Shown here: piece after piece, positions 17,238 through 23,576 of the stretch
Position numbering within the stretch: the stretch's first letter is position 1
How the letters are laid out: each line of letters opens with the position of its first letter
Assembly: GCA_913050325.1 (NCBI GenBank)
Contig: CAJWZP010000003.1
Span: 1 to 64,000 of the forward strand
DNA from: an uncultured bacterium
GTDB taxonomy: Bacteria; Desulfobacterota_D; UBA1144
Direction of reading: 5' to 3'
Length of the DNA stretch: 64,000 bases
Program-made: the position numbers and the translations under genes
The notes under the pieces: generated by a model
What the model saw: only the letters and a program-made list of their open reading frames with translations
Database searches by the model: none
Told to the model about the DNA's origin: nothing

Positions 17238-18578
17238 ATGCTTTATATTTGTACTAATTGTCAGCAAACCTCACCTACCAAGCTAGGTAAATGCTATAAT
17301 TGTCAAGAATGGAACACTTTTGAAGAAAAAAAAGATGAAAAAGTAGTAAAAATTTTCAAAAATACCAAATTACATAAATTATCAGACATCAAACATGATA
17401 ATCAAAAAAGAATAAAGACTGGCATTAAAGAATTAGATAGGGTTTTGGGTGACGGATTAATAATGGGTTCATCGATTTTAATGGGTGGTGAGCCTGGAAT
17501 AGGAAAGTCAACATTAGCACTTCAATTATCTCAAAAATTATCCATAAATCATTCAGTTATGTATATTTCTGCAGAAGAATCATTATCTCAAATTAAGTCA
17601 AGATCTGAAAGATTACAAATATCATCCAACAATCTTTTTATTTTGGATGATAAGGAATTAAATCAAATTTTTGTCCACACTGAAGAATTAAAGCCAGAAA
17701 TTATAGTTGTAGATTCTATTCATACGCTTGATTCCGAAAATACTGATACGATTCCAGGCTCAATTTCACAGGTAAGGTCCATAACACATTCATTAACTGA
17801 TTATTGTAAGAAGAAAGGTTTGATTTTGATTTTAATTTGTCATATTACAAAAGATGGAGTAATTGCTGGACCAAAAACTTTAGAGCATCTTGTAGACACT
17901 GTTTTATATTTTGATCACATAGATTCTGATGATTTAAGATTACTAAGAACCACAAAAAATCGTTATGGCCCAACTAATGAGATTGGTATCTTTAAAATGG
18001 AATCCAAAGGTTTGTTAGAAATAAATGATTCAGAAGAAATTTTTATATCGAAAGAAAATGACAATAGTTTTGGGACATCTATTACGACTACAATCGAAGG
18101 GTCCAGGTCTATCTTGGTTGAAGTCCAGTCATTGGTTTCTCAACCACTTCAATCATATGGGAAAAGATTTAGTAATGGCATTGAAATAAATAGGTTAATG
18201 ATGTTGGTTGCAATTATAGAGAAGTTTACAAGAAATAAATTATCCGATAAGGATGTTTTTATAAATATTTCTCAGGGTTTAAAGATTAAAGAAACCGCAA
18301 TTGATATGGCAATATTAGCATCACTAATTTCAAGCTTAAAAAATATTCAAATTTCATCTGACATTGTTTTCCTAGGGGAGGTTGGTCTAAACGGAGAATT
18401 TAAAAATATATCCAAAATGGAAAAAAGAATATCTGAATTAAATAGATTAGGTTTTAAGAATTGTGCTTTACCAAGTAAATTTCAAAATGATTCAAAAAAT
18501 TTACCCTTAAAAGATATAAAATTTATTTTTTTAAAAAATATCTTTGAACTTGAAACATTTTTAGGTGATAAAATTTGA
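17238..18578 (+). CDS. radA: DNA repair protein RadA
   Basis: RecA-like helicase that promotes branch migration during recombination. 446 residues. An N-terminal C4 zinc finger (CTNCQQ ... GKCYNCQEW) precedes the ATPase core with Walker A GGEPGIGKST near residue 85. The RadA-specific KNRYG motif is present (TTKNRYGPTNEIG), and the C-terminal Lon-like domain (about 290-446) contains VFLGEVGLNGEFK. It overlaps murI by 4 bp (TTGA), so the two are translationally coupled. Confidence 0.96.
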   Translation: MLYICTNCQQTSPTKLGKCYNCQEWNTFEEKKDEKVVKIFKNTKLHKLSDIKHDNQKRIKTGIKELDRVLGDGLIMGSSILMGGEPGIGKSTLALQLSQKLSINHSVMYISAEESLSQIKSRSERLQISSNNLFILDDKELNQIFVHTEELKPEIIVVDSIHTLDSENTDTIPGSISQVRSITHSLTDYCKKKGLILILICHITKDGVIAGPKTLEHLVDTVLYFDHIDSDDLRLLRTTKNRYGPTNEIGIFKMESKGLLEINDSEEIFISKENDNSFGTSITTTIEGSRSILVEVQSLVSQPLQSYGKRFSNGIEINRLMMLVAIIEKFTRNKLSDKDVFINISQGLKIKETAIDMAILASLISSLKNIQISSDIVFLGEVGLNGEFKNISKMEKRISELNRLGFKNCALPSKFQNDSKNLPLKDIKFIFLKNIFELETFLGDKI

Positions 18579-19354
18579 AAATAGGAATTTTTGATTCTGG
18601 TATTGGTGGATTAACTGTTTTTAGAGAATTGATAAAAAAATTACCAGATCATCATTATATTTATCTTGGTGATACAGCTAGATTGCCATATGGTACAAAG
18701 TCGAAGAAAACAGTATTAGAATATTCAATTAATAATGCTAAATTTTTACTTGATAAAGGCTGTGATATTATTGTAATTGCATGTAATACTGCTTCTTCTT
18801 ATTCAACTTTAGAATTAAAAAAATATTTTAATATACCTATTTTTAATGTAATTGATGCAGGCATAGCTGGTATTAAAAAAAAGGAAAATTCAAAGGTAGG
18901 AATTATTGGAACACCGTCTACTATACTTAGTAATTCATATCAAAAAAGATTAAAAAAGAAAAAAATTAAAAAAATTTTTGCAAAACCTTGTCCAATTTTT
19001 GTTCCAATAGTTGAAGAGGGACTTATTAAAAATAAATATGCTGATAAAATAATTAGTGAAAATATTAAAAATTTTAAAAAAATTAATTTAGACTATCTAA
19101 TTTTGGGCTGTACTCATTACCCTTTTTTGAAAAAAATAATTAAAAAGAATATCGGAGAAAATGTCGAAATAATAGATTCAGCAATTCATATAACAAAACA
19201 AATTAAGCAATATATTTTGAAAAACGGATTAAAAAATACAAAAAAAAATAAAAAAGATATTTATTTAACTGATAAATCAAAGTACTTTGAAAAAGTTGTT
19301 AAAAAACTATTTCCATCAATTAAATTAACAATTAAGCTAGTTGACATCAGATAG
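18575..19354 (+). CDS. murI: glutamate racemase
   Basis: Converts L- to D-glutamate for peptidoglycan. 259 residues. Signature segments: IGIFDSGIGGLTVF, GDTARLPYGTKS, the first catalytic cysteine in IACNTASS (near residue 71) and the second in LGCTHYPF (near 183). The initiator is TTG overlapping the radA stop (TTGA). Its stop codon lies within the left arm of a 14-bp inverted repeat. Its presence implies a peptidoglycan wall. Confidence 0.95.
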   Translation: MKIGIFDSGIGGLTVFRELIKKLPDHHYIYLGDTARLPYGTKSKKTVLEYSINNAKFLLDKGCDIIVIACNTASSYSTLELKKYFNIPIFNVIDAGIAGIKKKENSKVGIIGTPSTILSNSYQKRLKKKKIKKIFAKPCPIFVPIVEEGLIKNKYADKIISENIKNFKKINLDYLILGCTHYPFLKKIIKKNIGENVEIIDSAIHITKQIKQYILKNGLKNTKKNKKDIYLTDKSKYFEKVVKKLFPSIKLTIKLVDIR

Positions 19355-22205: not shown

Positions 22206-23576
22206 TTAATTCTCCTTTTCTACCTCTAAAATCCTACAATCAAAATTTTCAAACAAATTTTTAATAGATTTTGATTCAAATAGTCTATCTTTATTTTCTT
22301 TAAAATTAAAATTGTCATGACTAGCTTCATTATTTTCTAAATTGGTATCATTAGAGCCATTTATTATATCGGATTTATTAGGCTCAACATCTTTATTCAA
22401 TAAATTTTTTTTTAAATTATTACTTTTTGTTTTTTTAACTTTTTTTTTTGAATCGGTTGAAACGGCTTTGGATTTATCATTGTTATTTAAATCTTCAATT
22501 TTGAAATAATCCGAGATAAGACATAATTTGATGATAGTTGTTTCAATTAAAACATCAGAATTTGAACTCTTGTATATTTTTTCATAAGAATTAATTAAAT
22601 TATCAAATATGTTTTCAATTTCATGAAGATTATAGTTTTCAAATTCAGCAAGGACCTTATCATTTAGAATTTCTACCGAAGAATCCTCGGTATCCACATT
22701 AAGTTTTGAGTAAATTATATTTCTAATAAAATATAAAATTTGATTGATAAATTTTTTACTATCAAGTCCTGATTTTCTAATTTCAGATATAATTTCTAAT
22801 GCCTTCTTAGTATTAGAATCTAAAATTTCTTTGGTAATTTCAATTACTTTATTTTTTGGAGCAATACCAAGTTTTTTTATTGCCTCTGAAAAAGAAATTT
22901 CACTATCTAAACTATTTGATAATAGTTCTAAAATACTCAGCGAGTCTCTTGCTGATCCGTTGGCTTCTTGTGAAATCAAATTAATAGAATCATTATCAAT
23001 TATAATTTTTTCATTATTACAGACAGTCTCAATTAAATTATTTAATTTTTCAGCATTCAAACTTTTAAAGTTTATAACTTGGCACCTTGATGATATTGTT
23101 AAAGGTATTTTTTCAACTTCAGTAGTAGCCAATATAAAAACAGTATTTTTATTTGGCTCTTCAAGAGTTTTTAATAAAGCATTGAATGCAGCTTTAGAAA
23201 GCATATGGACTTCATCTATTATAAATACTTTATGGCTGCATTTAATTGGTGAATAATTTGAAATTTCGATAACTTCACGAATTTGATCGACACCGTTATT
23301 TGAAGCTGCATCAATTTCTATGACATCTAAGCATTTTCCATTATCAATATCAGAAGCAATATCAGAATCCTCAGATATTTCATTAGAATTAATAGCTTTT
23401 GCAAAAATTCTAGCCATTGAAGTTTTTCCTATACCTCTTGATCCACAAAAAATTAATGCATGCGGAATTGAATTATTTGATATAAAACTCTCTAGAATAG
23501 TAATTGGGGTTTCTTGACCAATAACTTCTTTAAAAGTCTTTGGTCTATATTTTCTTGCTAAAACTATATACGACAT
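22206..23576 (-). CDS. dnaX: DNA polymerase III tau/gamma subunit
   Basis: Clamp-loader ATPase. The start used is the ATG at 23574-23576, giving MSYIVLARKYRPKTF, the canonical DnaX N terminus, and 456 residues. An upstream in-frame extension would translate through tRNA-Ser and SRP RNA and is rejected. Seen: Walker A-type GSRGIGKTS, DEVHMLSKAAFNALLKTLEEP, and the SRC sensor (TISSRCQ). The zinc-binding cysteine cluster usual after Walker A is largely missing (one Cys in GKCLDV). The tail is lysine/asparagine-rich. A run of ten A residues (22440-22449) may give a short gamma form. There is no ribosome-binding site; the SRP RNA ends about 10 bp upstream. Confidence 0.95.
   Translation of the reverse strand: MSYIVLARKYRPKTFKEVIGQETPITILESFISNNSIPHALIFCGSRGIGKTSMARIFAKAINSNEISEDSDIASDIDNGKCLDVIEIDAASNNGVDQIREVIEISNYSPIKCSHKVFIIDEVHMLSKAAFNALLKTLEEPNKNTVFILATTEVEKIPLTISSRCQVINFKSLNAEKLNNLIETVCNNEKIIIDNDSINLISQEANGSARDSLSILELLSNSLDSEISFSEAIKKLGIAPKNKVIEITKEILDSNTKKALEIISEIRKSGLDSKKFINQILYFIRNIIYSKLNVDTEDSSVEILNDKVLAEFENYNLHEIENIFDNLINSYEKIYKSSNSDVLIETTIIKLCLISDYFKIEDLNNNDKSKAVSTDSKKKVKKTKSNNLKKNLLNKDVEPNKSDIINGSNDTNLENNEASHDNFNFKENKDRLFESKSIKNLFENFDCRILEVEKEN
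22439..22449 (-). promoter_or_regulatory. A10-G slippage site in dnaX
   Basis: The coding strand reads TC-A10-GTTAAA around codon 379. A -1 ribosomal shift, or insertion of one A by polymerase slippage, gives AAA-AGT-TAA, a stop after one serine and hence a protein of about 380 residues. That is the gamma-type product known from E. coli (A AAA AAG) and Thermus (A9). Its use in this organism is inferred. Confidence 0.6.

Follow-up and report, generated by a model that had tools for sequence, protein, structure and literature searches.

A conserved run of ten A in dnaX of an AT-rich uncultured bacterium is a probable site of programmed slippage

The 64,000-nucleotide stretch of DNA analysed here (the window) carries a dnaX gene with ten consecutive A on its coding strand. 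The question is whether this run serves to produce a short gamma subunit beside full-length tau, or follows from a lysine-rich linker and an AT-rich codon bias. In Escherichia coli, dnaX makes gamma by programmed -1 ribosomal frameshifting on the word A_AAA_AAG. The product of the window gene belongs to the DnaX tau/gamma family, with a score of 363.6 bits against TIGR02397 (cut-off 250) and Pfam matches to PF13177 (residues 21-173), PF22608 (182-216) and PF12169 (236-360, domain III). The gene is followed by a YbaB/EbfC-like gene and then recR, both named by inspection of their translations. The run lies in the linker beyond the domains shared with gamma, and a 380-residue product ends about 20 residues past Pfam domain III.

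On the coding strand, the site reads GAT TCA AAA AAA AAA GTT AAA, with ten A at 22449-22440 and a G at 22439. The A10-G span that an earlier note on this DNA had proposed as a slippage site is thus present, but the E. coli word is not, as the in-frame reading is A_AAA_AAA and then G. The -1 frame continues AGT TAA, confirming the immediate stop that the note had reported; the predicted products would be a tau of 456 residues and a gamma of about 380. The note had also cautioned that ten A are not decisive by themselves, and we agree: synonymous resampling gives a run of at least A10 in the linker with P of about 0.27. The linker is rich in lysine, and 85% of lysine codons are AAA. The same linker holds a second, shorter run, possibly accessory to the main one, and G003 is the one relative with anything similar. 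The features are listed in Table 1.

Table 1. Features of the dnaX locus, in window coordinates
Feature	Position	Strand	Basis or remark
dnaX, full-length product tau (456 aa)	22206..23576	-	TIGR02397; Pfam DNA_pol3_delta2, DNAX_ATPase_lid, DNA_pol3_gamma3
Domains I-III (residues 1-360), common to predicted gamma and tau	22497..23576	-	Pfam
Candidate A10 slippage run, third base of codon 376 and codons 377-379	22440..22449	-	sequence
-1 frame stop TAA, one codon past the run; would end a 380-aa gamma	22435..22437	-	
+1 frame stop TAA, nine sense codons on; read in transcripts with A9 or A12	22412..22414	-	
Second A-run in the same linker, A9 from codon 388	22405..22413	-	sequence
Tau-only conserved C-terminal tail FNFKENKDRLFESKSIKNLFENFDCRILEVEKEN, residues 423-456	22209..22310	-	conserved in 14/14 family copies

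The run was followed through a family sample of 14 genomes, of which 13 yielded dnaX (one with two copies, one with a partial gene), giving 14 copies from five genera. Every copy has an A-run in the linker, with A9 in three, A10 in nine and A11 in two. The run begins in all three codon phases, and the residues around it vary (SKKKV, PKKKV, LKKKI, QKKS, QKKN, EKKS, EKKKL and KKKT). In the QKKS, QKKN and EKKS copies, bases of the non-lysine codons complete the run, which indicates that the DNA is conserved rather than the protein. The expectation of the earlier note that the run would be kept while surrounding codons vary is therefore borne out across A9-A11, and AAG lysine codons, which it would have taken as evidence to the contrary, occur inside the run in none of the 14 copies. 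With each copy's own amino acids held fixed, runs of at least A9 are expected in 7.1 copies and seen in 14; for at least A10 the expectation is 3.9 copies and the count 11 (P of about 1e-5, copies taken as independent). Such P values are optimistic because copies within a genus share ancestry. As a control, 15 neighbouring gene families with 177 members were aligned, and a run of at least A10 was found only in dnaX (10/13); the runner-up family (window 18575-19354, forward strand) has A9 near codon 222 in 4 of 12 orthologues within the genus. One bin, G005, contains two different dnaX copies, L090 (G005:C12) and L096 (G005:C6), which are either two paralogues or the result of a mixed bin. Both carry A10, and they account for two of the four A10 runs in that whole genome.

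Stops in the shifted frames are close to the run throughout the family. A -1 stop follows within eight codons in all 14 copies, so the conservation predicted by the earlier note holds for a nearby stop; the immediate stop, one codon on, is found in five copies only. The -1 distances are no shorter than in the rest of the AT-rich linker, and no significant enrichment was found among the 14 copies. The +1 stop follows within nine codons in 14/14 copies and is nearer than background (P of about 0.003-0.004, copies taken as independent). All 14 copies have nearby stops in both shifted frames, as in the Thermus-type arrangement, and both stops fall within five codons in nine of them, compared with 4.3 expected from synonymous resampling.

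Downstream of the run, the intervening linker could not be aligned, and the C-terminal tail is highly conserved in all family copies. This conservation implies selection on the full-length product as well, and given this tau-only tail both tau and the predicted gamma look useful. The tail may serve to contact polymerase alpha, if it works as in E. coli tau. The genus of the window lacks about 75 tau residues between linker and tail (22311-22439 compared with L087-L096) that are present in other genera, and it still has the A-run and the tail.

The genome itself is about 1 Mb with 28% GC, and A10 occurs at only eight places in 1.0 Mb when both strands are counted. Avoidance was estimated from 382 predicted coding sequences in 415 kb of this genome, with synonymous codon shuffling as expectation; additional family stretches were left out, as they had partly been picked for holding A10. 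Sense-strand runs of at least A8 are near expectation (310 seen, 321 expected), and those of at least A9 fall to 0.63 of it. Runs of at least A10 are depleted about tenfold (4 seen vs 39.1 expected, or 0.10), and runs of at least A11 are absent from this sample (13 expected). Long A-runs are strongly avoided in this genome, and dnaX is an exception. The A10 in dnaX stands out because the genome otherwise avoids such runs and because a run is kept in every relative. By the criterion of PMC1088944, the sharp onset of avoidance at A10 suggests a slip-prone machinery, although mutational instability or ribosome sliding could also produce it. The other sampled coding A10 runs lie in genes that on inspection resemble coaBC, ispD and argG (L130:4327-5529, L130:49-633 and L142:2240-3430), the argG-like gene having its run at codons 2-4. 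SAR11 genomes of like AT content give A10 counts of 147-303 each, and no conserved dnaX A-run was found in them, so AT content does not explain the present case.

The site shares features with each of three known dnaX systems. Like the E. coli gene, it would end gamma one codon after a slip into the -1 frame, and a single tRNA-Lys (UUU) was found. It differs from the E. coli site in its much longer run than seven and in having no in-frame AAG, Shine-Dalgarno-like stimulator or stem-loop. The dnaX of Thermus thermophilus undergoes transcriptional slippage at A9 (Larsen et al. 2000, as reported in PMC5009743 and PMC1088944). As far as it is described there, the Thermus site resembles ours in being a pure A-run of the sense strand placed after the gamma domains and ahead of the tau tail, with tau in the zero frame and stops nearby in both other frames; the window run exceeds the minimum of at least nine A taken for this type. 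Compared with that description of Thermus, our case differs in having A10 (A9-A11 in relatives) in a 1-Mb genome of 28% GC, and in that one tRNA-Lys was found where Thermus has two. The GeneTack survey (PMC3711429) lists two-ORF dnaX genes with ten A for which transcriptional slippage was predicted. These share the A10 with our gene but need a slip to make tau. In the family copies the tau frame stays open rather than ending at the run, and it is gamma that would need the slip.

We consider it likely that programmed slippage takes place at the A10 run, most likely during transcription; the site is real and conserved, and probably functional. RNA polymerase would slip on the ten A, so that the number of A varies among the mRNAs. 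Those that keep the frame (A10, A13 and so on) would encode tau, and the others would reach a stop 1 to 9 codons on in either shifted frame, giving a gamma of about 380-388 residues. Such a gamma would retain the ATPase and oligomerisation domains I-III and lose the conserved tail together with the remainder of the linker. That slipping occurs, as well as the step at which it acts, the tau:gamma ratio and the role of the tail, is what we infer from the DNA. The Thermus type is favoured over the E. coli type because the run is long and purely A, has no AAG, no consistent Shine-Dalgarno word and no stem-loop, and has stops in both frames, all of them characters that PMC1088944 and PMC5009743 report for Thermus.

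The closest competitor is programmed -1 ribosomal frameshifting, in which tRNA-Lys would slip back by one base on A_AAA_AAA and the ribosome would end after one serine, yielding the same 380-residue gamma from an unchanged mRNA. The word is present in frame, a single tRNA-Lys (UUU), as found here, promotes slipping of the ribosome in E. coli, and five copies have the -1 stop one codon on. We nevertheless regard it as unlikely. An A7 would suffice for it, yet A9-A11 is kept against a genome-wide avoidance, and the stronger word A_AAA_AAG occurs in frame at the site in 0 of 14 copies. Nor is there a consistent stimulating element: 12 of 14 copies, the window's among them, have nothing like a Shine-Dalgarno word within 40 nt upstream, and no downstream stem-loop was found in the window copy (-1.5 kcal/mol, z +0.58) or in relatives (z -1.7 to +0.8). 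In addition, the +1 stops are nearer than background, which a -1 slip does not need. Ribosomes might instead slide on the iterated AAA codons in a non-programmed way, pausing, sliding and ending at nearby stops to leave a diffuse gamma. E. coli ribosomes do slide on A-runs and end early (PMC4363877), and such sliding would also account for the avoidance of long A-runs. However, robust truncation in that E. coli system needs A11, and A9 or A10 gave little truncated product (PMC4363877). Most copies here are A9-A10, and we find this account improbable.

Equally poor in our judgement are the prospects of a run without any slippage function, in which a lysine-rich linker and AT-rich codon bias produce the A and KKK(V) is retained because the protein needs it, perhaps to contact DNA. 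An AAA fraction of 0.85 among lysine codons and the resampling result for a single linker agree with it. Against it, most other KKK stretches of the genome are interrupted by AAG (23 of 100 isolated KKK consist of nine A, with 60.7 expected), at least A9 is found in all 14 copies even where only KK is encoded, and neither neighbouring families nor SAR11 have such conservation. The least probable reading, and a very improbable one, is phase variation or a homopolymer assembly error. Homopolymers are mutable and error-prone, and two Fibrobacteraceae loci do show A11 with a split frame, but in 14/14 family copies the neighbouring sequence compensates for the length of the run (A9, A10 or A11) and the tau frame stays open, a pattern that random indels would not leave.

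The DnaX tree places the family on a long branch, apart from other members of its class and next to no named phylum. A proteorhodopsin-like gene is present in family genera g1 and g3 (for example L198, G000:C2:97714-98358) and absent from g2, g4 and g5. PMC8115339 describes marine pelagic Dadabacteria of clades I and II, and the genome and proteorhodopsin pattern here match that description, from which we infer that the family belongs to these bacteria. Our literature search returned no mention of dnaX together with Dadabacteria. Slippage in dnaX is already known as a type, from the A9 of Thermus and the A10 of the GeneTack genes, and this lineage appears undescribed for it. Comparative tools find no new coding sequence where a slip truncates the product, a limit noted in PMC1088944, and so say little on whether uncultured bacteria make a separate gamma subunit. 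A homopolymer kept against genome-wide avoidance offers a test from sequence only that is usable in AT-rich genomes. Its retention here suggests that even a streamlined 1-Mb genome maintains a clamp loader with two subunits.

Within the class, conservation of the run does not reach beyond the family: among 18 loci from other families, one has at least A9. The word A_AAA_AAG was considered as an ancestral signal in the class and set aside; it occurs in three of six loci examined, at scattered positions. Among low-GC dnaX genes of other phyla, runs of at least A9 are near expectation (10/20 vs 8.2 expected), so that one A9 run in a genome of this kind carries little weight. Fibrobacteraceae belong to an unrelated phylum, have genomes of 36-55% GC and carry A9-A11 at the corresponding linker place in 30/30 loci (L200-L229; also L017, L024, L028, L031 and L035). 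Their site mostly reads xxA AAA AAA AAA GTA/TTA xxT GA, with -1 and +1 stops usually two and one codons on, and both stops are very close in 21 of 26 one-ORF copies compared with 1.7 expected from synonymous resampling. As a candidate slippage signal, it is stricter than that of the window and the stronger case. It is probably of independent origin, and common descent with losses is a possible alternative. We tentatively propose, at somewhat less than even confidence, that homopolymer slippage in dnaX arose repeatedly in bacteria that purge long runs, with selection at the DNA level both here and in Fibrobacteraceae, and that an A11 (G076, G105) switches the gene between needing a slip for gamma and needing one for tau. 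If true, A10 would be permitted in dnaX and in hardly any other gene of these genomes. The frame is split at the run in L209 and L224 (Fibrobacteraceae, A11) and in L061 (a Crocinitomicaceae MAG, A10), for which assembly error is possible; in these loci the zero frame closes just past the run and a different frame stays open through the tau tail, resembling the two-ORF genes of GeneTack.
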